Shown here: positions 11,373-37,600 of the stretch, one piece after another | Layout: every line of letters begins with the position of its first letter | How positions within the stretch are numbered: position 1 is the first letter of the stretch | Assembly (NCBI GenBank): GCA_013112585.1 | Contig: JABFGH010000035.1 | Coordinates: 1-45,937, forward strand | Direction of reading: 5' to 3' | Source: Ignavibacteriota bacterium | GTDB lineage: Bacteria > Bacteroidota > Ignavibacteria > Ignavibacteriales > Melioribacteraceae | DNA length: 45,937 nt | Notes under the pieces: generated by a model | Database searches by the model: none | The model's input: only the letters and a program-made list of their open reading frames with translations | What the model was told of the DNA's origin: nothing | Position numbers and translations under genes: made by a program

Positions 11373-12401
11373 TCACCTTTTCAATATTTTGGCGATCCTA
11401 TTATTTATGATTTCCGACAAGTTCCAATTGTACAGTTTAGGATCGGTTGTGCTGTAGAACTGAATAACAACAGCATCAAGGTCATTATAATAGTTGGCGA
11501 AACTCTGGTATCCCGGAACCCAGCCGGCATGTTCATTTTCGTAGATTGAAGAGTATATTTGCTGTTCATCTCCATCGAACAGTGAGCCATCATTTAATGC
11601 CCGTAGGAAAATACCAACATCCTCTGCTGTGGCTAACATGCCGTGTTCATCTGCCTTTAAATCATAGGGATGCCCAACATGATAGCCGCTCATAACACTG
11701 TCTATATTAACTTCGCTGAGTGATGCAAAAGTATTTTTCAGCTCAAGCCGGTTTAAAATTTCTGCCCGGATAAATTGGAAATGAGGATAACCCAGCATTC
11801 TATCCATTATCTCTGCAAGCAGCAAGTAATTTGTGTTACAGTATTCGTAATCTTCGCCCGGTTCAAAGTTAGCAGGTTTGTCCAGAATCAATGCAAGACT
11901 TTCTTCATAGGTCTCTGTTGGCGCTGCCCAAAAATTCGGGGCATCTGTGAAATTGGGAATACCGCTCCGATGCTGCACCATCATTCGCAAGGTTATACTT
12001 TCGGCATTTTCAATTCTGCCCACAAGCTCCGGAAAGTAAAAGGCAAGTGTACTATCCAAAGATAAACGTTCGTCATTTACTAATTTAGCTACAGCAACCG
12101 CATTGTATAATTTGCTGATACTGGCAATTTTGAATAACGCCTGCGGGTAGGCGGGAATTTTATTTTTTTTGTCATGCCAGCCGGCTGCATAAAACTCCGG
12201 CGGTTTCTCGGCTTCGTCGACGTAAACAATCATTCCATCAAACCCATGTTCAATAGCTTCATCTAATTGTTCTTGAACCGTATCCGGCAGAGGTAATATC
12301 CAAGCATATACTAAGAGCCATGGTACGAAAAACATTGCGATGATAGTTCCAATTAGCAATGCGATTCTGATTATAAGTTTTGTTTGTTTTTTAGTCATCA
12401 T
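11373..12401 (-). CDS. Membrane-anchored serine hydrolase, beta-lactamase/DD-peptidase fold
   Basis: 342 residues. An N-terminal membrane helix (about 10-37) anchors a class C-like beta-lactamase domain facing the periplasm. The three active-site elements are present: S94-I-S-K97 (catalytic Ser and Lys), Y187-C-N189 (YxN), and H291-A-G293 in the place of KTG/HxG. Lys97 and Tyr187 act as the general base pair in this family. Members hydrolyse D-Ala peptides, esters or lactams; the sequence does not decide which. It stands between the ParDE pair and site F, its start 36 bp after that repeat. Confidence 0.85.
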   Translation of the reverse strand: MMTKKQTKLIIRIALLIGTIIAMFFVPWLLVYAWILPLPDTVQEQLDEAIEHGFDGMIVYVDEAEKPPEFYAAGWHDKKNKIPAYPQALFKIASISKLYNAVAVAKLVNDERLSLDSTLAFYFPELVGRIENAESITLRMMVQHRSGIPNFTDAPNFWAAPTETYEESLALILDKPANFEPGEDYEYCNTNYLLLAEIMDRMLGYPHFQFIRAEILNRLELKNTFASLSEVNIDSVMSGYHVGHPYDLKADEHGMLATAEDVGIFLRALNDGSLFDGDEQQIYSSIYENEHAGWVPGYQSFANYYNDLDAVVIQFYSTTDPKLYNWNLSEIINNRIAKILKR

Positions 12402-19987: not shown

Positions 19988-20728
19988 ATGAATAAACGAG
20001 AAAAAATCACCATAGAAGAGAATGATCCCTTCTACTACGATAAACTAAATAGAGAAAAAACAGCACAGAAGTTAAGTGAAGTATTATCAAAAATTAATGA
20101 ACCGTTTCTCTTAATGATCAACGGGAAAGGGGGCAGAGGTAAATCCACTTTTGTTGATATGTGGAAACAGGAACTGATTAATTATGGCAACAATACATTA
20201 AAGCATAACGCAGTTGAAAATGAATACTCTGAAAATCCCTTAGCATCATTAGTCTCTGAACTAATAGATAAAATAAATGACATTCAAAAAGGGGAGAAGA
20301 TCCCGCCGACTATCAAATGGAATTTCAAAACTATCAGTGAAGCAATTGATGAGCTGGCAGATAATTCAACCGGCAGTAAAATTAAACGGATGGAAAGTTT
20401 TGAAAAGAAAAAGAACGCTGCCTCTGTAATTAAAAAAAGCATGACTGCAATTTTAAAAGAATACTATACTAACGAAGAAGGAACATTTACTCCGCTTTAT
20501 TATTTTATTGATGAACTTGATAAATGCAAACCTTCATTTGTTTTGGATATGCTGAACACAATTAGCAGAGTATTAAATATTCCCGAAATAATTTTTATTG
20601 TTGCCGTGGATAAATCTCAAATTGAAAATGCCGTAAAAGTAATTTACGGCAATGGGTTTGATACTGATAATTATTTCAAGAATACATTTAACTTAATTTG
20701 TGATCTGGACGAAGAGAAAAAATCTTAA
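19988..20728 (+). CDS. Short KAP-family P-loop NTPase
   Basis: 246 residues. Walker A is G46-K-G-G-R-G-K52-S53-T54 (NGKGGRGKST), and the Walker B-like region is YYFIDELDKC (D175-E-L-D178), followed by LNTISRVLNIPEIIFIVAVDKSQIENAV, all typical of KAP NTPases. These are STAND-like ATPases, several of them membrane-linked or connected with phage exclusion. The family is usually about 450-700 residues with membrane insertions between Walker A and B; here the insertion is missing and the C-terminal part after YLEK-like FDTDNYFKNTFNL is lost. So it is either a minimal soluble form or a truncation. It converges with the next gene, overlapping by 4 bp. Confidence 0.75.
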   Translation: MNKREKITIEENDPFYYDKLNREKTAQKLSEVLSKINEPFLLMINGKGGRGKSTFVDMWKQELINYGNNTLKHNAVENEYSENPLASLVSELIDKINDIQKGEKIPPTIKWNFKTISEAIDELADNSTGSKIKRMESFEKKKNAASVIKKSMTAILKEYYTNEEGTFTPLYYFIDELDKCKPSFVLDMLNTISRVLNIPEIIFIVAVDKSQIENAVKVIYGNGFDTDNYFKNTFNLICDLDEEKKS

Positions 20729-21624
20729 TTTTTCTTCCAAGTATAATCAGGTTCAAAGTAGTCCCACAAAATTTTTGATACATCTCTGATCAGCACATAA
20801 CCTTCATTATCATCTTCCCATCTAGTATCTTCTTGATTTTTTGTGATCACACAAAACACATAATCGCCATGCGGGGCATTAACTAAAACTACTTCCGATT
20901 TTGATCGACTGACCGCACCCTGCTTTGATGCAGCTTGCACAGTCGGCGGAATTTGAGAGAGCGCTTCTTCATCCCAGTGAATTCTTGTTAAGTGGCGGTA
21001 CATATCTTCACTTGCGTTTTCGGAGACAGCCTCACCATTTCTGATTCTAATTAATAGCTCAGCCATTTCTTTTGGAGTAGTTTGTCCCCAGCCGTATTTT
21101 TTATAGCCCGCTTCTCTCCCTTTGGTTCTTGAATTTACCCGTGTATGTTTTAAGCCCGCAATTTCAAGCCATTCATTAATTGCTGTGCCGGTGCCGGCTA
21201 ACTTCTGCAGCCATAAACTTGCGTGGTTATCGCTGAAGGTAATCATGTGCGTGAGCAATTTACTAATTGAAATATCTTCACCTTCACGAAAGCGGGAAAT
21301 TGCATCATCACCTTTCCACTGGTAATTAATTGTATCCTTAAAATAAAGCAGCGTGCTGTCTTTGCTCAATTCTCCTTTTTCAATCCGGTCAAATATTTTT
21401 ATCATTATTGGCACTTTTATCATACTGGCTGTGGGAAAAAGAGTATCGGCATTTATTTCAAATGTTTCGCCGCTCTTTAAATCTTTTACAAAAATTCCAA
21501 CATCACCCTTAAAATTTTCAACTCTCTTTTCTAAAGTCGCTTGTACGTCAGGCTTTTGTTCACAACCGGTGAAAAGTATTACTGCCGCTTGTAAAATTAT
21601 AATTGCAAAAGTTTTCTTAAACAT
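20725..21624 (-). CDS. Class A beta-lactamase-like serine hydrolase lipoprotein
   Basis: 299 residues. The signal peptide ends LFTGC, so Cys21 is lipidated and the enzyme sits at a periplasmic membrane face. S67-M-I-K70 matches class A S70/K73, S131-D-N133 matches S130-D-N132, and K234-Q-G236 stands at the KTG site with Gln in place of Thr/Ser. The omega loop (SRTKGREAG...GQTTP) has no residue obviously equal to Glu166, the deacylating base. The protein therefore looks more like a slow acyl-enzyme or D-Ala-D-Ala-peptidase relative than a real beta-lactamase. It is followed on its own strand by a membrane protein gene. Confidence 0.85.
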   Translation of the reverse strand: MFKKTFAIIILQAAVILFTGCEQKPDVQATLEKRVENFKGDVGIFVKDLKSGETFEINADTLFPTASMIKVPIMIKIFDRIEKGELSKDSTLLYFKDTINYQWKGDDAISRFREGEDISISKLLTHMITFSDNHASLWLQKLAGTGTAINEWLEIAGLKHTRVNSRTKGREAGYKKYGWGQTTPKEMAELLIRIRNGEAVSENASEDMYRHLTRIHWDEEALSQIPPTVQAASKQGAVSRSKSEVVLVNAPHGDYVFCVITKNQEDTRWEDDNEGYVLIRDVSKILWDYFEPDYTWKKN

Positions 21625-22901: not shown

Positions 22902-23600
22902 TTAATGATAACCGCTTCCCCAGTAGAGGAAGTTTATAAAGATCAGATGTATTTTGAAGTAAATCCAATCAAAAATTTTCCAGGCGATTAAGATACCAAA
23001 AATTGCAAATGCGCTGTTGTGAATAAAACTCATATACTTTCTTGAGTTCTTATCGCTTAGATAAAGAGTAACCATTCCGCTGCCATCCAATGGGGGGATT
23101 GGAATGAGATTAAATATGAATAAAATTAAATTGAGTGAAAATAAAATACTCACCATTGAGGCAAGTGAAGTTCCAATTCCTTCATCATAAGCTTGAACAA
23201 TTGAAGAAATAGTAATCGAATCGGGCTGATAAAAATAACCGAGTGCAATTCCTATATGAATAAGAATACCGGCAATAACAACGAGCAGTAAATTTGAAAA
23301 GGGTCCTGCCGCTGCCATAATTCCCGCTTTTTTCGGATGGTCGTAAGCCCACTTCAAATTATAAGGTGCGCTTGCCCAGCCTATCATCCATCCCGCTAAG
23401 AAAAATGAAATAAAGGGAACAACGACAGTTCCAATTGGCTCTTGTTTAATATGTGGAATTGGGTTAAGTGTTACCTGTCCGTTATGGTAAGCGGTTAAGT
23501 CCCCGAGTTTCATTGCAAAAAATGCGTGTGATGCCTCGTGTAAAGTGGTTGATAGTAAGAATACTAAGTACCAAAATAATATGTCAGGAAAAACTTCCAT
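22902..23600 (-). CDS. Site-2-type zinc metalloprotease (M50), YwhC-like
   Basis: 232 residues, about five membrane helices. The zinc motif HEASH (H21, E22, H25) is in the first helix, and N164-LIPIPPLD172-G173 supplies the third ligand and conserved Asp; the NPxPPLDG pattern matches M50 family YwhC/FtsH-like intramembrane proteases. No PDZ domain, so this is the minimal form. M50 proteases cut membrane-spanning substrates such as anti-sigma factors after a first cut; a link to the anti-sigma at 33213 is only a speculation. The start is GTGAAGT-poor, with no clear SD; a Met is used. Confidence 0.82.
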   Translation of the reverse strand: MEVFPDILFWYLVFLLSTTLHEASHAFFAMKLGDLTAYHNGQVTLNPIPHIKQEPIGTVVVPFISFFLAGWMIGWASAPYNLKWAYDHPKKAGIMAAAGPFSNLLLVVIAGILIHIGIALGYFYQPDSITISSIVQAYDEGIGTSLASMVSILFSLNLILFIFNLIPIPPLDGSGMVTLYLSDKNSRKYMSFIHNSAFAIFGILIAWKIFDWIYFKIHLIFINFLYWGSGYH

Positions 23601-26557: not shown

Positions 26558-27601
26558 ATGGCTACGAAGCAAGATTTTCTGAAGGAAAAAATTCAACACA
26601 TTAATATAAAAGAACACAACGTTGTTCCGCTCGTTGAGTCAATGGAAAAGATGGCTTTTTCGGCGAGGGACTTAAACCGTGCCGCGCAAATTTATGATAT
26701 GATGCTTAAAGATAAAGAATGTGCGGTTATACTTACTCTTGCGGGCAGCTTGTTCAGCGCCGGATTAAAAAAAGTCGTTCATGATCTAATTGAAAATAAC
26801 ATGGTTGATGCAATTGTTTCTACGGGTGCTATAATGGTTGATCAGGACTTTTTTGAAGCGCTCGGATTCAAGCATTACATCGGCTCGCCTTACACTGATG
26901 ATAATATGCTTCGCGACCTTCACATCGATAGAATTTATGATACATACATTGACGAAGATGAATTAAGAATTTGTGACGATACCACTGCTGAAATTTTCGA
27001 TAGTCTTGAACCCCGCCCATATTCCTCACGTGAATTGCTTTGGCACTTTGGAAAATATTTAGAAGATAACGGCGGACCGAAAGTTGATGATTCAGTTGTT
27101 TACGCTGCGTATAAAAACAACGTTCCTATATTTGTCCCCGCATTCTCTGACTGCTCAGCCGGATTTGGATTTGTCGTACATCAAACAAAAAATCCTGATA
27201 AACATGTTACGCTTGATTCTGCAAAAGATTTTCTTGAATTGACAAAAATAAAACTTGAAAATAAAGAGACCGGAATATTTATGGTCGGCGGCGGTGTCCC
27301 AAAAAATTTCACACAAGATATTGTTGTTGCGGCTGATATTCTTCAAGAAGATGCGCCTATGCATAAATACGCAATTCAAATTACTGTTGCCGATGTTCGG
27401 GATGGTGCGCTTTCAAGTTCAACATTAAAAGAAGCAAGTTCTTGGGGTAAAGTTGAAACTACTTATGAGCAAATGGTTTACTCGGAAGCAACACTTGCCA
27501 TGCCGCTTATTACCGGCTATGCTTATCATAAAGGCTCATGGAAAGCACGCGGGAAAAAAGAACTTCAGAAAATTTATATGAAGGAAGAAATAGTTAAATA
27601 A
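26558..27601 (+). CDS. Deoxyhypusine-synthase-like protein (bacterial clade)
   Basis: 347 residues covering the whole DHS fold, NAD-dependent. LAGSLFSAGLKKVVHDLIENNMVDAIVSTGA, MVGGGVPKNF and SSWGKVE (Lys298, equal to the enzyme-intermediate lysine K329 of human DHS) are clear. However, the human active-site pair His287-His288 in GGGVVKHH is replaced here by Asn250-Phe251. Bacteria have no eIF5A, so the substrate must be different: bacterial homologues in this clade include homospermidine synthases (speY type), while others are uncharacterised. Cytosolic. It stands alone, with its own promoter and hairpin after the stop. Confidence 0.83.
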   Translation: MATKQDFLKEKIQHINIKEHNVVPLVESMEKMAFSARDLNRAAQIYDMMLKDKECAVILTLAGSLFSAGLKKVVHDLIENNMVDAIVSTGAIMVDQDFFEALGFKHYIGSPYTDDNMLRDLHIDRIYDTYIDEDELRICDDTTAEIFDSLEPRPYSSRELLWHFGKYLEDNGGPKVDDSVVYAAYKNNVPIFVPAFSDCSAGFGFVVHQTKNPDKHVTLDSAKDFLELTKIKLENKETGIFMVGGGVPKNFTQDIVVAADILQEDAPMHKYAIQITVADVRDGALSSSTLKEASSWGKVETTYEQMVYSEATLAMPLITGYAYHKGSWKARGKKELQKIYMKEEIVK

Positions 27602-27636: not shown

Positions 27637-27845
27637 ATAATACCTCCCAAGTTCCTGTATTGAAAACCTGCCAAACATCTATTCCCTGCTAAAATAATTT
27701 CCTGCTCCGCAATTTATTTTGATGAAAAATTTATTTGTATGTCACTTTATTCTGTTAGCGCATACTATTTCTATAAATCAGAAAGTTTTTAATTAAAAGA
27801 AAATTAAAGATCTAAACACTCATTAAATTTAAAACGGAGTCAATT

Positions 27846-29825
27846 ATGAAACGTAGTAATGCAAAACAAAATATCCCCTTTCTAAAGTTTGTTAAATTAA
27901 TCCCGATTCAATTGCTTCTCCTCCTGCTTAGTACAAGCCTGTTTGCTCAGCACGGACAGGAAATTGAGGTAGAAGGATACATAAGTGAAGTAGGGATAGA
28001 TTATTTGGTAGTTCAAGATTATTCATTTATTGTTGATGAAAATACAGAAATTGTAGATGAAGACGATATTCCTCTGCTATTCTCATCACTAAGCGTGGGC
28101 ATGTTAGTTGAAGTTGAAGGGTACCTCAATAACGATGGAAGCTATATAGCTCATACAATTGAAGTAGAAGACGATTCTTTAGGCGGAGACGACTTTGAAA
28201 TTACCGGCTTTGTAGAAGCAATCGATTCAATTTCATTCAGTATTAATGGATTCCCTTTTATTGTTGATGCTAATACGGTTTTCGAAACCGAAAGCGGATT
28301 ATCTTTTTCTTTTTCACAAATAGAAGTCGGGATGCTGCTGGAAGTTGAAGCTGAGCTTTTGCCGGGCGGTGAATTATTAGCGTTGGAAGTAGAATTGGAA
28401 GATGATCACAATTCCGGTGAAGAAGTGGAGCTAACAGCCCGCATAGATAGTATTACAACCAACAGTATAATTATAGGCAATTGGGAATTCTTCGTAAATG
28501 AGCAGACTGAAATTAAGGGAGATGATGATCAAATATTAACATTAAGTGATCTTGCTGTTAATAGCCTTGTTGAAGTTGAAGCATTCAAGCAGCCGGATGA
28601 AACCTTTCTTGCTGTTAAAATTGAAGTTGAAGATGATCATGAAAATGAAATTGAATTTACTGCATGGATTGAAAGCATTGAAGGCAGCAGTATTACCTTG
28701 CTCGGAATTACTTTTTTAACTGATTCTAATACAGTATTTCTTAATAATAACAGAATGCAGGTAAGCATTGGTGCTTTGGCTGTAGGAATGCTGGTGGAAG
28801 TAGAGGGTATTAAGTTAAATGACGGAACATACTATGCCGAAGAAGTTAAGATTGAAGATTTTTATAGTGACGAAATTGAGGTTGAAGGTATAATAAGTGA
28901 ATTATCTAATTCATACCTTATTGTAAATGATATACAATTTGAAGTTGACAGCACAACAGAAATATTAGACGATCAAGATAATGTGATTCCGTTTTCAGCT
29001 TTAACTGTTGGACAGTTGGTTGAAGTAGAAGGAATAAGAACAGAAAACGGCTCAATTCTAGCATCAAAAATAGAAATTGAAAATGAGAATGACATTGAAA
29101 TATTCGGAAAAATTACGGCAGTTAACAGCGATAATTTGGAACTGAATGGATTGACAATTTATGTTACTGAAAATACTATCTACTTAAATCAAAATAATCA
29201 GCCAATAACATTTGGAGACTTAAGTGTTAATCTTTTAGTAGAAGTTGATTTAACAATCGGGCTCAACAACGTTTTAACAGCAGAAAAAGTTAAAATTGAA
29301 GACGGACCGGATTTCTCTAAAATTAACGGCAGTATTGGTGCGGTATCGGGAATTGAAATTCAAGTTGCTCAAGCAAGTTATTCTATTAGCAGTGAAACAA
29401 TAATACTTGATAAAAATTTCAACAAAATTTCAATCAGTCAACTCAATACCGGAGAGAAGGTAACTGTTTGGGCACAATCGAATGGATCAAACAGAAGTGC
29501 TTTCCAAGTTCAGTCAAGCATCGGCGGTGTAACAGCAGTTGACGATAATGCCATTGTTGCCGCTAACTTTGAACTGGAACAAAATTATCCTAATCCGTTC
29601 AACCCTACTACAACAATTTCCTTCACAATATTTTCTGATGAATTGGTAACTCTAAAAGTATTTAATGCCATTGGTCAAGAAGTAGCAACTCTATTAAACA
29701 ATAAATTAGGCAGCGGCAGCTACAATGTAAGTTTTGACGCAGCCGGTTTAAGCTCAGGCATCTATCTTTACAGGCTCGAAAGCGGAAGCCAGTTACAAGT
29801 AAAGAAAATGATGCTCCTCAAATAA
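27846..29825 (+). CDS. Secreted seven-repeat DUF5666 protein with T9SS sorting domain
   Basis: 659 residues. A hydrophobic signal segment (about 15-34) ends SLFAQH. Seven repeats of about 70 residues follow (about 36-560). Each has the plan 'I-E-V-E-G-x-I-S-x-V...F-x-V-D-x-x-T-E-I...L-x-V-G-x-L-V-E-V-E-G...A-x-x-I-E-V-E-D-D', which is the DUF5666 beta domain. The repeats are very acidic, ending in VEDD clusters that might bind cations. The last 85 residues, starting ELEQNYPNPFNPTTTISF and ending QVKKMMLLK, are a T9SS type A sorting domain, so the protein is probably displayed on or released from the outer membrane. It is followed by a strong terminator. Confidence 0.87.
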   Translation: MKRSNAKQNIPFLKFVKLIPIQLLLLLLSTSLFAQHGQEIEVEGYISEVGIDYLVVQDYSFIVDENTEIVDEDDIPLLFSSLSVGMLVEVEGYLNNDGSYIAHTIEVEDDSLGGDDFEITGFVEAIDSISFSINGFPFIVDANTVFETESGLSFSFSQIEVGMLLEVEAELLPGGELLALEVELEDDHNSGEEVELTARIDSITTNSIIIGNWEFFVNEQTEIKGDDDQILTLSDLAVNSLVEVEAFKQPDETFLAVKIEVEDDHENEIEFTAWIESIEGSSITLLGITFLTDSNTVFLNNNRMQVSIGALAVGMLVEVEGIKLNDGTYYAEEVKIEDFYSDEIEVEGIISELSNSYLIVNDIQFEVDSTTEILDDQDNVIPFSALTVGQLVEVEGIRTENGSILASKIEIENENDIEIFGKITAVNSDNLELNGLTIYVTENTIYLNQNNQPITFGDLSVNLLVEVDLTIGLNNVLTAEKVKIEDGPDFSKINGSIGAVSGIEIQVAQASYSISSETIILDKNFNKISISQLNTGEKVTVWAQSNGSNRSAFQVQSSIGGVTAVDDNAIVAANFELEQNYPNPFNPTTTISFTIFSDELVTLKVFNAIGQEVATLLNNKLGSGSYNVSFDAAGLSSGIYLYRLESGSQLQVKKMMLLK

Positions 29826-30923: not shown

Positions 30924-32534
30924 CTACTTCAATAATACAGCCTTCTTGAGCAGAATATTTTTTTCGGTTATAAGTCTAATTAAATAAATACCGGAACTAA
31001 ATTTCGAGCCGTCAAATTTGTGATTGAAAAACCCCTGCTCGGCAATTCCCTCATAAAGTGTTTGAATTGTTTCTCCAAGAATGTTTACTATTTCTAATTT
31101 AACATGCCCTCTTACAGGATTAAAGAACATGATATTAGTTTCCGGATTAAACGGGTTAGGATAATTTGGGAATAGAAAGGGTGAGTCTGCTATCGGTTCA
31201 TCCTCATTAACCTTAGTAATAACAAAATTAAGTTCCGCGTTAGTAATTGCAGTATTTTGCTGAGTGATAGTAAAAGTGACATCACTTTCAACTATTTCAG
31301 AACCGAGGGTTTGTGCAAATAATTTGTAATTACCGTAGGGTAAATTGGTTACTCCAAAATTCCCTGCCGGGTCTGTTAAGTTATAATGATAAAATGTATT
31401 GTTTGATGTATTCTGTGCAAGTACGATTATCTCTCCCGATGAAATAGGCTGAGAATTTATTAGAACTACACCGTTAATAGTACCTGCACCATAAGCAGAA
31501 TCCCGCGCTGCAAATACATCTTTATCTATAACTTGGTTGATAATATAAACAGAATCGGCATCCTGCCAATAAGCTATTGGATAGTTGGCTGAAGAGTTAT
31601 AATAAGAGGGGATATAAAAATCGGGGAATGCCTGAATAAAATAATAACCGGGCTGAAGAATGTCGTTGATTTCGTAAGAGCCGTCAGGATTTATCAATGC
31701 AGCGTGGGTAGTCGGTTCTTCAGAAATTCCGAATGGACCGATGCTCATTTTAGTCGGGTCATGTTTTCCTTTTCTTACAATTATCACACCCCTGTCGATA
31801 GGATAGCCGTCGTTGAAGTCAATCACTTTACCTGAAACAGAATTACCTGCAGCATTTTTTCTGATTATTGGGACAGTAATGTTAGTAACGGAATCATCAT
31901 CAACCTCTATTGTTTCTGCCAAATATGGATTTAGAACATTGTTAAAGTAAGTAAGGTAAAATCCTTCTTTTTCAACTGCTAAAGTATAATCACCCTCATG
32001 AACCATTAAAGAGAAATTTCCTCCAGCATCTGTTCTTAAAGTATCGTAAAGATAAATTCCTTCTCGGTACAAATATACTTTTGAAAATTCTGTTGAAACG
32101 CTGTCGTTTACAACCTTTCCTGTAATTTGTCCTTCCTTTTCCGAATCATCAAAAAATTCTATCTCAATTTCCAGTTCTTTAAATTGTGTTCCATTAGAAT
32201 AATAAAAAAGCATTTCATCTGAAGTATCTAAGGAAGTTACATTAAAGTAGTTTGAAAGAATTATTTCCATAGCAATAGTATCGCCGGGCAGGATAGAAAT
32301 GGGATAGACTTCCGGGATATTAAAGGATTTATAATATAGTGCTTCATTAAATATTATTGAGTCAATAATAACGGCTACATCTCCATCGTTAAAAAGAATT
32401 GCATTTTCAATTCTATGGAAAGGGTCTTCAAATTCAATTTGATTCGGATGAATTTCCAGTTCGGGCTGTGCAGTTAGCGTTATGTTAACTGCTATTATAA
32501 GTACAAAAGTTAATCTGTTAATTTTCAATTTCAT
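30924..32534 (-). CDS. Secreted T9SS protein with carboxypeptidase-regulatory-like domains
   Basis: 536 residues. Signal peptide (about 1-22, ending NITLTAQP), then an Ig-like 'PELEIHPNQIEFEDPFHRIENAILFNDGD' domain of the abnormal-spindle/ASH or choice-of-anchor type (about 24-125). Then come three CarboxypepD_reg-like beta sandwiches: GQITGKVVNDSVSTEFSKVYL...GDYTLAVEKEGFY (about 135-200), NSVSGKVIDFNDGYPIDRGVII...GYYFIQAFPDFY (about 232-310), and GTINGVVLINSQPISSGEIIV...GNYKLFAQT (about 352-415). The end (from about 453, PNYPNPFNPETNIMFF to LLKKAVLLK) is a T9SS sorting domain. It is divergent from the sigma factor operon with a 66 bp shared promoter region, so it may be a target of that system. 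Confidence 0.83.
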   Translation of the reverse strand: MKLKINRLTFVLIIAVNITLTAQPELEIHPNQIEFEDPFHRIENAILFNDGDVAVIIDSIIFNEALYYKSFNIPEVYPISILPGDTIAMEIILSNYFNVTSLDTSDEMLFYYSNGTQFKELEIEIEFFDDSEKEGQITGKVVNDSVSTEFSKVYLYREGIYLYDTLRTDAGGNFSLMVHEGDYTLAVEKEGFYLTYFNNVLNPYLAETIEVDDDSVTNITVPIIRKNAAGNSVSGKVIDFNDGYPIDRGVIIVRKGKHDPTKMSIGPFGISEEPTTHAALINPDGSYEINDILQPGYYFIQAFPDFYIPSYYNSSANYPIAYWQDADSVYIINQVIDKDVFAARDSAYGAGTINGVVLINSQPISSGEIIVLAQNTSNNTFYHYNLTDPAGNFGVTNLPYGNYKLFAQTLGSEIVESDVTFTITQQNTAITNAELNFVITKVNEDEPIADSPFLFPNYPNPFNPETNIMFFNPVRGHVKLEIVNILGETIQTLYEGIAEQGFFNHKFDGSKFSSGIYLIRLITEKNILLKKAVLLK

Positions 32535-32600
32535 TTTTTAGTATTCGATTTCGTATTTATTATATTAGTAAACAAATTAATCAAAAAGTGACATACAAAA

Positions 32601-33158
32601 TTGAAAAAAAATAGCCGGCATTACAGTAATTTTTCAAAGGCTGAGCTCGACAAGTTGCTTCAGGGTGCAAAAGCAGGTGATAACCATAAATTTAATTCAC
32701 TTTCTTCAAGCATTAGAGAAATAAGCCACAGTTATTATTATTCAAAATATAAATTAGGCAAAATTCAATCTGAAGATGATGTAGATGATCTTTGCCAAAA
32801 TTTGTTCTTGTCATTTGCTAAGCAGTACCAGAATATAGAAAATATTGAAAACTGGCTGCGAAGAGTTTTGTTTTTAACTTATGCCAATTGGTATAAGAAA
32901 TCAAGTAAGAATAAAAATTTTGAATTTGACGAGAGTTTTTATCAGCAGGATGAGGCAGAGGATATAACGGAAAGAGCAGATCATGAAACAATTGTTAATA
33001 TGTTAAACTCACTTGATGAAAAAAAACAGCAGATAATAAAATTAAGGTTTTGGGGCGGATTGAAGTTTTCTGAAATTGCCGAAAAACTTGATGGAAATGA
33101 AGCAGCAATAAAAAAAATGTTTTATAGAACACTAATGAGCCTTAAAAAAAAATTGTAA
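32601..33158 (+). CDS. ECF-type RNA polymerase sigma factor
   Basis: 185 residues; the start is TTG. Region 2 (about 30-95: SEDDVDDLCQNLFLSFAKQYQNIENIENWLRRVLFLTYANWYKK) and region 4 (about 125-182: MLNSLDEKKQQIIKLRFWGGLKFSEIAEKLDGNEAAIKKMFYRTLMSLKKKL) are clear, with the acidic linker FDESFYQQDEAEDITERADHE between them. ECF sigma factors direct RNA polymerase to a small regulon and usually to their own promoter, and they are held by an anti-sigma factor. The next gene (54 bp downstream) has the features of that anti-sigma. Confidence 0.9.
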   Translation: MKKNSRHYSNFSKAELDKLLQGAKAGDNHKFNSLSSSIREISHSYYYSKYKLGKIQSEDDVDDLCQNLFLSFAKQYQNIENIENWLRRVLFLTYANWYKKSSKNKNFEFDESFYQQDEAEDITERADHETIVNMLNSLDEKKQQIIKLRFWGGLKFSEIAEKLDGNEAAIKKMFYRTLMSLKKKL

Positions 33159-33212
33159 ATGTCACTAATCGTTTACCTGCAATACTAATATTGTAACAAA
33201 GAGAATATTAAA

Positions 33213-34187
33213 ATGAACGAAAAAGATTTTATTTATAAATTATTGGAAAAAGAAAACATTTCGGATGATGAAAATTCCCAAATGAACGAAATACTAAATA
33301 AGGATCGTAGTTTAAAGTCTTTCGTTAATTTCTATTTCAAAGCAAAAGCTGCTGTTGAAAAAAAATCTCATATCGCTCCTGATATTTTAGCCGATTATAT
33401 TTTATTTAAATCTCAGTTACAGACTGAAAGTGCGGGCATTTTTAATTTGGCTGATAAAATTGAAAATCATTTAAGAGGATGTGATAAATGCACGGAAGAT
33501 TTTAAAGTGCTGAATGAAGAGTATTTATCGGTTGATGAATTTATTACTGATAATATTAGTCAAACCGATATAAATGAAACGGAGATTACTAAGAACGTAT
33601 TTAAGAATATTTTTCAAAGTAGAACTGTTTATAAATCTTTATATGCATTTGCATTGCTTGTTTTGTTTTATGCCGGAGCAGTGTTCATTACAAATTATTC
33701 CATTCCCGATTACAATAGGGAGATAACTGAGCTAAGCGGGGAATTGAACTTGAATTCAAGAGGAAGAGCAAGTCAGGAATTTTTAATGGGAATTTCCGAA
33801 CTTCAAAAAGGGAATTTTGAAAATGCCGTTTTATCATTTAAAAGCGACTTAAAAAATAATAAGAACTCTAAAACTATTTTTTATACTCATTTTATTCTCG
33901 GTCAAGCTTATTTAAGAAATGCAAAAAAAGATTTACTTGGAATAAATTTGGGATTTGACCAGGACTTTATTAATAAAAGTATCAATGAATTTAGGAATTG
34001 TATTGCTGTAAATAATAATTATCAGTTCGTAAATATTAATTATGACGCTCATTATTTTGTAGGAAGAGCATATTTACTGCGTGATGATAAAAACCAGGCA
34101 ATTGAAGAATTTAATAAAGTGATAGAAAATAAGGGCAGATTTATTAATGAAGCAAAAGAATTAATAAGTACAATTAAGAGTGAATAG
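33213..34187 (+). CDS. Membrane zinc-finger anti-sigma factor with extracytoplasmic TPR domain
   Basis: 324 residues. Cytosolic part 1-140: helical start, then the zf-HC2-type zinc motif H86-x3-C90-x2-C93 (ENHLRGCDKC), the classic ZAS anti-sigma signature. One membrane helix at about 142-162 (SLYAFALLVLFYAGAVFITNY). Outside: TPR-like repeats about 187-320 (SQEFLMGISELQKGNFENAVLSFKSDL, IFYTHFILGQAYLRNAKKD, AHYFVGRAYLLRDDKNQAIEEFNKVIENKG). So a cytosolic sigma-binding head is joined to a periplasmic protein-interaction domain. The stop overlaps the next gene start by one base (TAGTG), indicating tight co-expression. Confidence 0.85.
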   Translation: MNEKDFIYKLLEKENISDDENSQMNEILNKDRSLKSFVNFYFKAKAAVEKKSHIAPDILADYILFKSQLQTESAGIFNLADKIENHLRGCDKCTEDFKVLNEEYLSVDEFITDNISQTDINETEITKNVFKNIFQSRTVYKSLYAFALLVLFYAGAVFITNYSIPDYNREITELSGELNLNSRGRASQEFLMGISELQKGNFENAVLSFKSDLKNNKNSKTIFYTHFILGQAYLRNAKKDLLGINLGFDQDFINKSINEFRNCIAVNNNYQFVNINYDAHYFVGRAYLLRDDKNQAIEEFNKVIENKGRFINEAKELISTIKSE

Positions 34188-37100
34188 TGGCGAGATATTT
34201 TGTAAAAATATTTTATGCAATATTAATTGTAAGCCTGTTTTATTCTTCTCCGGCGGCTAAATCAAATTTTATAAATATTGATTCCTTAAAAATTGAAATT
34301 ACAAATAATGGATTTAAGGGCAGCAGTCTTGATGATTATATATTCTATATTGTAAACAATCCGATTGATACAGATGCTGAAACAATATTTTTGAATAAGA
34401 CAGATCATCAGAGTAATGAACACAAACTCGCAAAAATATTTCTGCTAAAGAAGGAGGACAAATTTAATCAAGCGTATGATCTCGCTGAAGAATTACTCAA
34501 TTCAGGGTTTAAGAATTACTCCTTTTATGAAGAATTGATCTTTATTGCGCAAGCCGATAATAAATTGGAAAGACTGAAAAAAAGAAAAGAAATTTCTAGT
34601 AATAAATTTTTAGCCGGTCTTATAAAGTTTAAAGAGCAAAATTATTCAGAAGCAAAAAAGATATTTACGGAATTGACGGAGGAAGATAAAAGTAAGGAGA
34701 ACTATTATTGGCGTGCTTATTCGGAAAGGTATTTAGGCAACTATCGGAATGCCTTATTAAATTTAAATAAAATACTGAACACATTAAAAGCAGAAGACCC
34801 ATTTTACGAAAAAGTGCTTAATGCATCGGGCAGTTTATATTATTTATCGGGGGAGTATCAAAAAGCAGAAAAGTTTTATCGAGAAGCATTTAATAAAGCG
34901 TTGGAAAACAAAAATAATATTGAATTAGTAAAAGCTAATATAAACTTAGCGATTATAGATGATGAAGCTGGTGAAATTTATGAAGCCAGAAAAAAACTTA
35001 GTCGGGCACAATTAATAGCAGAGGAAATTAACGCATTAGATTTAATAGCTATCGTTCACTCAGAGCTGGGTGTATCATATACTTATGAAACCCGACTCAC
35101 AGAAGCGGAGGAGCACTATTCAGAATCGCTTAACATATATAAGAGTATTAATGAAAGCAGTAGATTGTCATCTTTGTACAATAATTTGGGTAAGATTTAC
35201 TTAAGTCTTTTTAATTACCGATTAGCATTAAACTATTTTAACAGCGGGTTGGAATATGCCGGAGATAATGTAAGAGGACAGATTATGAATCTTACTCAAA
35301 TAGCGGATGTATATGCTAATATGGCAAACTATTCCGAGGCTTTTAATTATTACCAAAAAGCAAAGGCACTTTCCGGGCAGATACAGGAATTAACACTTCA
35401 ATTTGAAATTGAAATGGGTCTCGGAATGCTGGACTTTAATTTAGGCAAGTTTTCCGAATCTCTTAAACTTTTCAAAAATAGTAAAGAACTGATATCGGAA
35501 AATAAACATCCATATTTGTTTGCCGAAGCTGAACATAAAATTGGAATTGCATACAGCTATTTAGATAGTTTACAACTTGCCGAAAGCTCATTTATTGAAT
35601 CAAGAAAATTATTTAAAAAGCATAGAGATATTTATAGTCAATTGCTGGTTGAATATGATTTAGCAGACCTGTGGCTGAGAACTAATCAATTTAAAAAGGC
35701 AAAGAATATTTTAAAGGAAAACAGAGAGATTTTAGATGTTTATGAGTTAGACTATCTGCTTTCCTTGAATTATTTATTTAATGCTAAAATTTCAATTGAG
35801 GAAAAAAAATACATAGATGCTGAAATTATGCTTGGCAAAGCAATAGAACTTGGCGAAAAAATTAATAAGGAAAATATAATTATTGAGTCGATCTACGCAC
35901 TTGCTAAATTACAAATGCTTAACGATGATAAAAGCCGGGCTGAAGAACTCTTTAAAAGTATCCGTGCAAAAATTGAAAGCAGGTCACTTTCGTTAATAGG
36001 TAATGCAGATGTACAGATATCTTATTTTGCAGGCTTCGACGAAATATATAATTCTATTTTCAATTTTTATTTGGAACAGGATAAACCGAATAAGGCGTTT
36101 GAAGTTCTGGACATTTCGCGTTCACGGAATACCCGCCAAAATATTACTAATCTTAAATTAAGTGCAAGTTCAAGTAATATGCCTCTAATCAAAAAGTATT
36201 ATGAATTGAACTGGGAAGTAAATTCCGATCTCTACTTAAAAGCAGAAAAAGATTCTCTTGAAAAAGATTTGAATGATATAAAGAAAGAAATTCTAAAAAA
36301 TAATCCTGAACTTCAAAAATATATGTCGCCGATCTATTCTAAAACTGTGGTGCAGATACAAAATGAATTAGATGACTCTGCACTGGTTTTGTCTTTAGAA
36401 TCAACAGATAATGTTACACATCTGTTTTTAATAGGAAAAAATAAGTTTAAGTATTTTAAGCAGGAGATTTCTAAGGAAGAAATATTCAAACTGCTTGCTC
36501 AAATCTCACCTTACTATTCAGAAAATGGTATCACTGAGGAAATAATTTTTAATAAAGACCTCTTCTCATTTAATGTTCAAAAGGCAAATGAACTTTATAA
36601 TAGATTATTCAAAGATATCTTTGAGCTTATCGGGAAAAATAAAAATCTGATTGTCTCAACATCTAATGAACTATTGAATTTCCCAATAGAATCAATTGCT
36701 TCAGAATATAATGAAGATTCCAGTCCATATAGTTTTAGAGATACAAAATTTTTAGTTGAAGATTACAACATAACTTATTCACCTTCAGTAAGTATTTATC
36801 TGCAGCTTCAAAAAAATAAGCCAAGCATGGCAGCAAATAATTTGCTCGTCGGTGACCCCATTGTTACAGAGAATAATTTTTACATAAATTTTAGAAGTTC
36901 GGTTCTACGAAATAACAAAGACATAAATCAAATTAAGTTAAATCCGCTTGAATACTCCAAAGAAGAAATTCAATCAATAAATTCTATTGTTGGCAATTCA
37001 ATTAATATTATTTCAGATGAAGCAACGAAATTAAACTTTAAAAAATATGCTCCGCAAAGTAAGCTCATTCACATTTCTTCCCATTCATTTTTAATAAACG

Positions 37101-37600
37101 AACTTCCTTTCATTGTGTTCTCAGAAAGTAATGAGGATAACGGTTTTTTAGAGATTGGAGAAATTTTACAGTTAAAATTAGATGCTGACCTTGTTGTTTT
37201 AAGTTCTTGTAAATCCGGATTGGGAGTAGTTGATAAAAGAGAAGGTATATTAGGAATGCAGAAATCTTTTTTTGATGCGGGTGCTAAAAGTGTGGTAGTT
37301 TCATTGTGGGACGTAAGTGATAAGCATACATATTTATTTATGGAGTTGTTTTATAAAAATCTTAAAACCGGATTGAATAAATCTTATGCATTGAAAAAAG
37401 CAAAACAAGATTTTATTAAAGAGTATTCACCAAATCCATACTATTGGGCGGCATTTGTCTTAGCAGGCAATACTGATGAACTAATTTTTAGTGAGACCGG
37501 CTTAAAATTAAATGCTGCACACTTCATCCTTCTTCTTTTGGTTTTAAGCCTAATTTACATTGGTAAAAAAAGTTTTACAAAAGCGAAAAAAATAGTTTAA
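34187..37600 (+). CDS. Exported TPR-CHAT (caspase-like) protease
   Basis: 1137 residues; GTG start. Signal-like N-terminus (1-25: MARYFVKIFYAILIVSLFYSS). About a dozen TPR repeats fill 60-620 (for example NLGKIYLSLFNYRLALNYFNSGLEY, AEHYSESLNIYKSI). The CHAT domain is about 780-1095, with the catalytic pair His966 (KLIHISSHSF) and Cys1008 (VVLSSCKSGLG), then GMQKSFFDAGAKSVVVSLWDVSD and YWAAFVLAGNTDEL, all standard for CHAT peptidases. A C-terminal membrane helix (about 1111-1128) and a basic tail (KKSFTKAKK) would anchor it with the protease outside. Third gene of the sigma/anti-sigma operon, so the anti-sigma TPR domain is a candidate partner or substrate. Confidence 0.87.
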   Translation: MARYFVKIFYAILIVSLFYSSPAAKSNFINIDSLKIEITNNGFKGSSLDDYIFYIVNNPIDTDAETIFLNKTDHQSNEHKLAKIFLLKKEDKFNQAYDLAEELLNSGFKNYSFYEELIFIAQADNKLERLKKRKEISSNKFLAGLIKFKEQNYSEAKKIFTELTEEDKSKENYYWRAYSERYLGNYRNALLNLNKILNTLKAEDPFYEKVLNASGSLYYLSGEYQKAEKFYREAFNKALENKNNIELVKANINLAIIDDEAGEIYEARKKLSRAQLIAEEINALDLIAIVHSELGVSYTYETRLTEAEEHYSESLNIYKSINESSRLSSLYNNLGKIYLSLFNYRLALNYFNSGLEYAGDNVRGQIMNLTQIADVYANMANYSEAFNYYQKAKALSGQIQELTLQFEIEMGLGMLDFNLGKFSESLKLFKNSKELISENKHPYLFAEAEHKIGIAYSYLDSLQLAESSFIESRKLFKKHRDIYSQLLVEYDLADLWLRTNQFKKAKNILKENREILDVYELDYLLSLNYLFNAKISIEEKKYIDAEIMLGKAIELGEKINKENIIIESIYALAKLQMLNDDKSRAEELFKSIRAKIESRSLSLIGNADVQISYFAGFDEIYNSIFNFYLEQDKPNKAFEVLDISRSRNTRQNITNLKLSASSSNMPLIKKYYELNWEVNSDLYLKAEKDSLEKDLNDIKKEILKNNPELQKYMSPIYSKTVVQIQNELDDSALVLSLESTDNVTHLFLIGKNKFKYFKQEISKEEIFKLLAQISPYYSENGITEEIIFNKDLFSFNVQKANELYNRLFKDIFELIGKNKNLIVSTSNELLNFPIESIASEYNEDSSPYSFRDTKFLVEDYNITYSPSVSIYLQLQKNKPSMAANNLLVGDPIVTENNFYINFRSSVLRNNKDINQIKLNPLEYSKEEIQSINSIVGNSINIISDEATKLNFKKYAPQSKLIHISSHSFLINELPFIVFSESNEDNGFLEIGEILQLKLDADLVVLSSCKSGLGVVDKREGILGMQKSFFDAGAKSVVVSLWDVSDKHTYLFMELFYKNLKTGLNKSYALKKAKQDFIKEYSPNPYYWAAFVLAGNTDELIFSETGLKLNAAHFILLLLVLSLIYIGKKSFTKAKKIV

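Follow-up and report, generated by a model that had tools for sequence, protein, structure and literature searches.

A TPR-CHAT protein with a caspase-like active site is encoded beside an ECF sigma factor and a membrane anti-sigma factor in Ignavibacteria and may cut the anti-sigma factor outside the membrane

Results

The window analyzed here, a 45,937-nucleotide stretch of an Ignavibacteriota bacterium genome (GCA_013112585.1, contig JABFGH010000035.1, positions 1 to 45,937 of the forward strand), contains adjacent genes for an extracytoplasmic function (ECF) sigma factor, a membrane anti-sigma factor and a TPR-CHAT protein. On balance we think it probable that the CHAT enzyme, acting outside the inner membrane, cuts the anti-sigma factor that restrains the sigma factor, and that the genes encode a membrane signaling module. 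The genes, their linkage, a common promoter motif and a distinctive conservation pattern are established by the observations below; the protein folds come from prediction. Our best reading is that the system is a split relative of the anti-sigma factor DdvA whose mode of action at the membrane resembles that of Craspase; nothing examined pointed to CRISPR.

A conserved gene set

A sequence-only reading had described the three genes as encoding an ECF sigma factor, an anti-sigma factor with an HxxxCxxC motif, one transmembrane segment and an outer TPR domain, and an exported, anchored TPR-CHAT protein with His966 and Cys1008. An open reading frame (ORF) check of the window confirmed all of these features and the same gene coordinates (Table 1), including a one-base overlap (TAGTG) between the anti-sigma and CHAT genes. 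The sigma factor matches the NCBIfam sigma70-ECF profile TIGR02937 over residues 49-185 (59.1 bits, cut-off 42.9), which gives it the sigma-2/sigma-4 architecture of ECF factors; Pfam Sigma70_r4_2 is also over its cut-off (1.1e-9), and Pfam gave no separate entry for region 2 of this protein. The CHAT protein matches Pfam CHAT (PF12770) at 2.8e-54, with 185 bits against a cut-off of 24, and TPR_12 at 4.5e-25. A Pfam scan of the genome gave 26 sigma region 4_2 matches, 22 of them over cut-off, and a single CHAT match was found genome-wide.

We looked for the same genes in 146 genomes from the order; at a threshold of 1e-10, the CHAT protein found a match in 65 of them. Matches of E 1.4e-44 or better were taken as orthologues; 36 genomes, the window's included, have one, some cut by contig ends. 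From 32 genomes, 33 orthologue matches were read as loci (L032-L064). The co-occurrence that the sequence-only reading had offered as a check was found throughout: in all 27 loci with a long enough contig, the six others being cut by contig ends, the sigma and anti-sigma genes lie upstream of the CHAT gene on the same strand. The gap between the anti-sigma and CHAT genes in these loci is -4 to 23 nucleotides; one of them, L046, has a T9SS gene between sigma and anti-sigma. This arrangement is kept across the order at identities of 26-40% for CHAT and 23-36% for the anti-sigma factor. Separate searches placed the anti-sigma factor in 33 of the 146 genomes and CHAT in 36, with 31 shared. Where CHAT was found without the anti-sigma factor (G014, G044, G096, G098 and G136), the CHAT gene runs off a contig end in each case. 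A second scan used two peptide patterns and took the best 80 of 298 relatives; within these, the top 31 loci (L116-L146), many of which coincide with loci of the 146-genome set, come from Melioribacteraceae, Ignavibacteriaceae, Ignavibacteria, Ignavibacterium, Ignavibacteriae or Ignavibacteriales, or are labelled only Bacteroidetes, Chlorobiota or 'Bacterium'.

A surface protein of the type IX secretion system (T9SS) belongs to the gene set as its fourth member. Of the 33 loci, 25 contain a T9SS/CarboxypepD_reg homologue, divergent upstream of sigma in 17 and downstream of CHAT in eight, and a search with the protein minus its tail found it in 34 of the 146 genomes, weakly in one (G038, 5.7e-17).

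The start of the sigma gene is unusual. In eight relatives (L034, L041, L042, L043, L045, L047, L055 and L064) the sigma frame has no nearby N-terminal ATG, GTG or TTG, and the preceding stop is followed in frame by ATA, ATC or ATT; the window gene starts with TTG. Weak initiation may keep the level of sigma low.

A CHAT protein predicted to be exported, with an intact catalytic pair

The CHAT protein is predicted to be exported and membrane-anchored. Hydropathy prediction finds an N-terminal hydrophobic segment in all 27 full-length orthologues and a C-terminal transmembrane segment with a positive tail in 25; the segment falls under threshold in L047, and in L055 the gene is broken by a frame shift. 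That frame shift (L055 7696-11155, genome G025) lies shortly past Cys1008 and reflects decay or assembly error. Because of these export and anchor signals, together with the positive inner flank and outer TPR domain of the anti-sigma factor, the relevant parts of both partners are predicted to face outward, on one side of the membrane, as had been proposed.

The putative caspase-like catalytic pair is intact: none of the 32 aligned sequences that span His966 and Cys1008, the window's included, lacks either residue, and two partial sequences stop short of them. Both residues are also invariant in a 44-row alignment of diverse CHAT domains, where the conservation of the cysteine is partly due to selection, because one of the two peptide patterns used to find the domains holds the catalytic Cys. 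An AlphaFold model of the protein (predicted local distance difference test, pLDDT, 85.6; predicted template modeling score 0.78) resembles separases, Csx29 and DdvA in fold comparison, in line with the earlier suggestion of a likeness to Craspase.

The anti-sigma factor and a CHAT-linked arginine

The anti-sigma factor combines the HxxxCxxC motif, single transmembrane segment and position 3' of an ECF sigma gene that mark zinc-type membrane anti-sigma factors. Among aligned CHAT-linked anti-sigma factors, H86 is present in 28 of 30 and C90 and C93 in 28 of 29; two relatives, L035 and L059, lack the H-x3-C-x2-C motif. The inner flank of the membrane segment is mostly positive across the aligned relatives. 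Residues 278-305 match TPR_2 slightly under the Pfam cut-off (E 1.2e-5), and the outer part of the AlphaFold model (pLDDT 83.8) matches TPR folds with a best Z of 15.8.

One residue outside the membrane stands out. Arg183 is present in all 31 aligned CHAT-linked anti-sigma factors and at three further loci (L233, L234 and L235), 34 of 34 in total, and Gly184 and Arg185 are each found in 28 of the 31. The anti-sigma factor of genome G156 (L232), which has an in-frame TAG through decay or assembly error, was left out of the Arg183 count. None of the three homologues that do not lie beside CHAT has Arg183, the residue pairs there being Q-N, G-E and Q-P. These homologues fall in separate parts of the tree (nearest-join support 0.98, 0.40 and 0.68). 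At 20 positions conserved in at least 90%, G006 keeps 15 residues, G011 17 and a fused copy in G138 12; R183 and G184 are the only two of the 20 lost in all three. The fused copy is a single 487-residue ORF that matches both the sigma and anti-sigma profiles (L198 2933-4393, G138:C327); no CHAT match was found in the 12 kb around it, and G138 also carries a CHAT locus elsewhere. The linker at Arg183-Gly184 is thus a candidate CHAT cut site on the strength of conservation. A pattern of the form R-[SGN] occurs in 12 of 17 non-orthologous anti-sigma factors against 5.0 in shuffles, which we treat as a lead only; the lead is weakened because the set consists partly of close relatives and two of the 12 first matches are at position 1. 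The pattern is missing in L175, L189, L159, L068 and L173.

A common promoter motif and its predicted targets

The search of intergenic regions for a common sigma-target motif, which the sequence-only reading had suggested, was productive. TGTCACT-N17-ACTAATAT occurs without mismatch both before the anti-sigma and CHAT genes and before the divergent T9SS gene, which had been named as a likely regulon member. The core TGTC[AC]C-N18-ACTA lies upstream of the anti-sigma gene in 22 of 29 stretches (that of L054 being two bases long). The misses in L035 and L037 reflect misplaced starts, and their sites appear in a whole-locus scan. Upstream of the T9SS gene the core is found in 13 of 18 divergent copies versus none of eight copies downstream of CHAT. 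Allowing spacings of 12-24 in the upstream stretches added two matches, both at 17; over 34 loci (525,375 bases), a spacing of 18 gave 54 sites versus 0-5 at each other spacing from 10 to 26.

The exact motif is about five times commoner in genomes that carry the system, with a mean of 4.14 in 36 positives versus 0.85 in 110 negatives (Mann-Whitney 8.5e-16, relatedness ignored). The negatives include G133, a genome with the T9SS gene, motif sites and a CHAT piece of 71 residues. The reversed pattern, used as a control, averaged 4.0 in positives versus 3.6 in negatives (p 0.34), and outside the fetched core stretches the positives still average 2.72 sites. The window's own genome is not enriched (five sites versus five for the reversed control), and the signal there lies in location: three of the five are in the window outside genes and the other two inside genes. 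G006 has a relaxed motif (TGTAAC form) near its sigma gene and three exact sites elsewhere. None of the three spacing-18 sites in the window points at the sigma gene; sigma therefore appears to induce the anti-sigma factor, the protease and the T9SS gene, and not itself. That this sigma factor is the one that reads the motif is presumed.

The third site in the window precedes a DUF5666 gene, and the motif is also upstream of DUF5666 relatives in four other genomes. The loci examined, 40 of which (L076-L115) were chosen for holding the motif, contain 103 sites: 92 outside genes of at least 170 amino acids and at most 160 nucleotides from a start, five farther away and six inside genes. After the 92 sites come 25 anti-sigma genes; a 25-member cluster that we read as 18 T9SS components and seven tail-merged secreted proteins; a mixed cluster of seven (nucleotidyltransferase-like and other starts); five DUF5666 and four DUF2231 genes; four clusters of three (YgaP-like transmembrane, T9SS-tailed secreted, CxxCH-bearing and PepSY); two clusters of two (one radical-SAM); and ten singles, including a cupredoxin and a YceI protein. 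These genes suggest that the system drives an envelope or redox response.

Table 1. Positions of the gene set, its predicted functional sites and the promoter-like motifs in the window
Feature	Position	Strand	Details or basis
ECF-type sigma factor	32601..33158	+	185 aa, TTG start; NCBIfam sigma70-ECF, Pfam Sigma70_r4_2
Membrane anti-sigma factor: inner zinc-motif domain, one transmembrane segment, linker, outer TPR domain (residues 188-323)	33213..34187	+	324 aa
H86-x3-C90-x2-C93 zinc motif	33468..33491	+	sequence motif
Anti-sigma transmembrane segment, residues 142-160	33636..33692	+	mean hydropathy 2.06, positive inner flank
Arg183-Gly184 codons, predicted scissile bond or CHAT docking site in the linker outside the membrane	33759..33764	+	conservation pattern
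TPR-CHAT protein: N-terminal hydrophobic signal, long TPR helical array, CHAT domain, C-terminal membrane anchor	34187..37600	+	1137 aa, GTG start
CHAT domain	36581-37471	+	Pfam match
His966 codon, predicted catalytic	37082..37084	+	conservation in orthologues and diverse CHAT set
Cys1008 codon, predicted nucleophile	37208..37210	+	conservation as for His966
CHAT C-terminal membrane anchor, residues 1108-1126	37508-37564	+	hydrophobic segment
T9SS-exported protein with CarboxypepD_reg domains, fourth component	30924..32534	-	CarboxypepD_reg 1.3e-14, Por_Secre_tail 1.2e-9
Promoter-like motif TGTCACT-N17-ACTAATAT before anti-sigma and CHAT	33160..33191	+	0 mismatches
Promoter-like motif TGTCACT-N17-ACTAATAT before divergent T9SS gene; TGTCAC directly precedes sigma start	32562..32593	-	0 mismatches
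Third core-motif copy, TGTCAC-N18-ACTA, upstream of DUF5666 gene	27740..27771	+	motif scan
Predicted regulon member: T9SS-tailed protein with DUF5666 repeats	27846..29825	+	DUF5666 8e-89

Directly before the motif-preceded DUF5666 gene, the window encodes a deoxyhypusine synthase family protein (26558-27601, 3.1e-99). It also encodes two beta-lactamase-family proteins (11373-12401 and 20725-21624).

Discussion

The model that we infer, from cleavage and cut site to signal and second cut, is as follows. The inner domain of the anti-sigma factor would hold the ECF sigma factor. The TPR-CHAT protein would be exported and held by its C-terminal helix on the outside of the inner membrane, where its TPR part would sense a signal; the T9SS surface protein, which is co-regulated, may pass that signal on. 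In response, CHAT would cut the anti-sigma linker between the membrane and the outer TPR domain, most likely beside Arg183-Gly184, and a general site-2 protease would release sigma. Freed sigma would transcribe from TGTCAC-N18-ACTA promoters the genes for its own anti-sigma factor and protease, as feedback, for the T9SS protein and for a few exported or membrane proteins. Linkage, predicted topology, catalytic pair, fold and the T9SS regulon member all support the core of the interpretation first offered by the sequence-only reading, and the Arg183 pattern lends it further support. Its suggestion that the M50 protease at 22902 makes the second cut does not stand: tblastn (E 1e-3) found no match to it in 33 orthologous loci (479 kb). 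The window protein is also the weakest of three M50 matches in the genome, a far better one lying on another contig.

Several points weigh against the model. No zinc-finger Pfam model, zf-HC2 included, was found for the anti-sigma factor or 26 aligned relatives (E 0.01, 20 families listed), so its identity rests on motif, topology and position; zf-HC2 does exceed its cut-off in L175, a non-orthologous CHAT-linked relative. The CHAT-less cases number three, and one of these has diverged overall, keeping 12 of the 20 conserved positions; with three losses the Arg183 pattern is suggestive, not proof. In the AlphaFold model, Arg183 is located at the junction of linker and TPR domain, at the start of the latter, so it could be a structural cap. 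Alanine scanning of Csx30, as described in passages on Craspase, found no single residue essential for cutting (PMC10028731), and a single invariant Arg therefore need not be the P1 residue. G006 and G011 (L196 and L197) have sigma and anti-sigma without CHAT, the T9SS gene, the exact motif at the locus or Arg183; the sigma/anti-sigma pair can therefore work otherwise. Finally, the co-occurrence of anti-sigma factor and CHAT (Fisher 3.7e-24 over the 146 genomes) is a figure that ignores relatedness.

Some of these points fit other explanations. The TPR-CHAT protein could be a non-proteolytic sensor, a split DdvA that binds the outer TPR domain of the anti-sigma factor and shifts its hold on sigma by conformation, with Arg183-Gly184 as docking site. 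DdvA has TPR-CHAT in one chain with its anti-sigma part, both partners here have TPR arrays, and R183 lies where the TPR domain begins, but a pure scaffold would not need the His966/Cys1008 pair, invariant in the orthologues and in the 44-row alignment; we consider this account unlikely. Somewhat less likely again is that CHAT is an output, a sigma-induced protease that processes T9SS surface proteins or another target, with ordinary DegS/RseP-type proteases releasing the anti-sigma factor. The promoter motif common to the anti-sigma-CHAT and T9SS genes would suit such a role, as would the retention of sigma and anti-sigma without CHAT in G006 and G011, whereas the tight packing of CHAT against anti-sigma in 27 loci, the presence of Arg183 with CHAT and its absence without, and the DdvA fusion all argue against it. 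That the genes are merely co-transcribed, without direct link, seems highly improbable: linkage is kept across the order at the low identities given above, the components co-occur, and similar groupings recur in other phyla. If cleavage of the anti-sigma factor by CHAT, which we prefer, is correct, a caspase-like enzyme would head a bacterial membrane-to-transcription pathway without CRISPR. The analysis puts names to a candidate cut site, a promoter and a handful of predicted target genes.

Relation to known systems

Besides Craspase, the nearest known relative, according to model and profile comparisons, is the one-chain anti-sigma factor DdvA, which the sequence-only reading had not named. 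PDB entries 8rot and 8rw5 are titled transmembrane anti-sigma factor DdvA, which we take, on the basis of PMC4374960, to be the Myxococcus xanthus protein. The CHAT model matches 8rw5 with a Foldseek E of 4.7e-15 and a Z of 23.8 (root-mean-square deviation, rmsd, 6.3 over 620). With a broad CHAT profile (A4; 44 domains, the window's included), DdvA came first among solved chains (8rot_B, E 1.8e-7) with the His and Cys aligned, followed by Csx29; phmmer with the CHAT domain gave one chance-level match and a narrow profile (A3) none. Both systems have an ECF sigma factor, a transmembrane anti-sigma factor and the TPR-CHAT fold, which DdvA bears on its own chain. Here, in contrast, the anti-sigma factor, with its own small TPR domain, and the TPR-CHAT protein are products of two genes, and a cut in trans is therefore possible. 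The modelled match shows anti-sigma and TPR-CHAT parts fused in nature. Passages on the cognate sigma factor, DdvS, describe it as active once DdvA is inactivated by an unidentified signal (PMC4374960) and as controlling an anti-phage island (PMC12288465).

Separases also combine a helical array with a caspase-like domain, and the CHAT model matches separase 5fc2_B with a Z of 29.0 (rmsd 2.8 over 307 residues). Separase cuts after Arg; it is a eukaryotic, intracellular enzyme with cohesin as substrate. The match to Csx29 (8eey_B) has a Z of 30.3 (rmsd 9.0 over 586). In Craspase, as passages of the paper describe it, this TPR-CHAT protease cuts Csx30, inhibitor of an ECF-like sigma factor (PMC10028731). 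The Csx29 fold and, in our reading, the cutting of a protein that restrains an ECF-like sigma factor are common to both systems. Craspase is RNA-activated and acts with Cas7-11, whereas here the protease is predicted to be exported and anchored and the anti-sigma factor is a membrane protein with an outer TPR domain. Pfam named no Cas protein among 18 of the window's 40 ORFs of at least 100 amino acids; no genome-wide search for Cas7-11 or CRISPR arrays was made. A defence-system reading was set aside: PADLOC gave two TPR models, for the CHAT protein only, and nothing for the other three proteins.

The EACC2/caspase systems (PMC8195603) are predicted bacterial systems that likewise link an ECF sigma factor and a TPR protein to a domain of the caspase type. 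They differ from the present set: their EACC2 and caspase domains are constant, their C-terminal domains vary, there is a TRADD-N link, and the passages concerned name no CHAT protease or anti-sigma factor. The proposed release logic is that of DegS/RseA/sigma-E, which passages of PMC10028731 summarize as an outside cut, then further cuts that free the ECF sigma factor; in our system, by contrast, a cysteine enzyme of caspase fold would make the first cut, in a substrate whose outer domain is TPR. A split set of sigma, anti-sigma and TPR-CHAT genes is described in no title or abstract opening that we found, most subscription papers lying outside that scope. PMC9308784 was rejected as a source of relevant counts, the 'chat' matches displayed in its passages being author names.

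Similar gene groups recur beyond the orthologues. An ECF sigma gene and a transmembrane anti-sigma-like gene lie within four genes of CHAT in 12 of 49 non-orthologous loci (iterated profiles, E 0.01), a count lowered because some contigs are short; with the chance of a sigma gene near CHAT estimated at about 5% (26 sigma genes per about 4,300), the binomial value is 9e-6, relatedness ignored. No cyanobacterial or Thermaceae CHAT locus among the 49 had this pair. Two loci (L066 4623-9233 and L067 6258-10896) encode an ECF sigma factor, a transmembrane anti-sigma factor and a membrane protein of 250-252 amino acids with the catalytic CHAT half; adjoining on the opposite strand is a TPR protein that weakly matches the other half (25 bits).

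If our reading of the Ignavibacteria system is correct, it offers a likely evolutionary setting for both Craspase and DdvA. A wider view, which we put forward tentatively and rate as possible but short of probable, is that outer TPR-CHAT enzymes are general site-1 proteases for ECF anti-sigma factors in several phyla, which cut about 23-26 residues past the membrane segment, after an Arg that has a small residue on its C-terminal side. DdvA would then be the fused form, Craspase the CRISPR-captured form, and the split enzyme of L066 and L067 a two-part switch.

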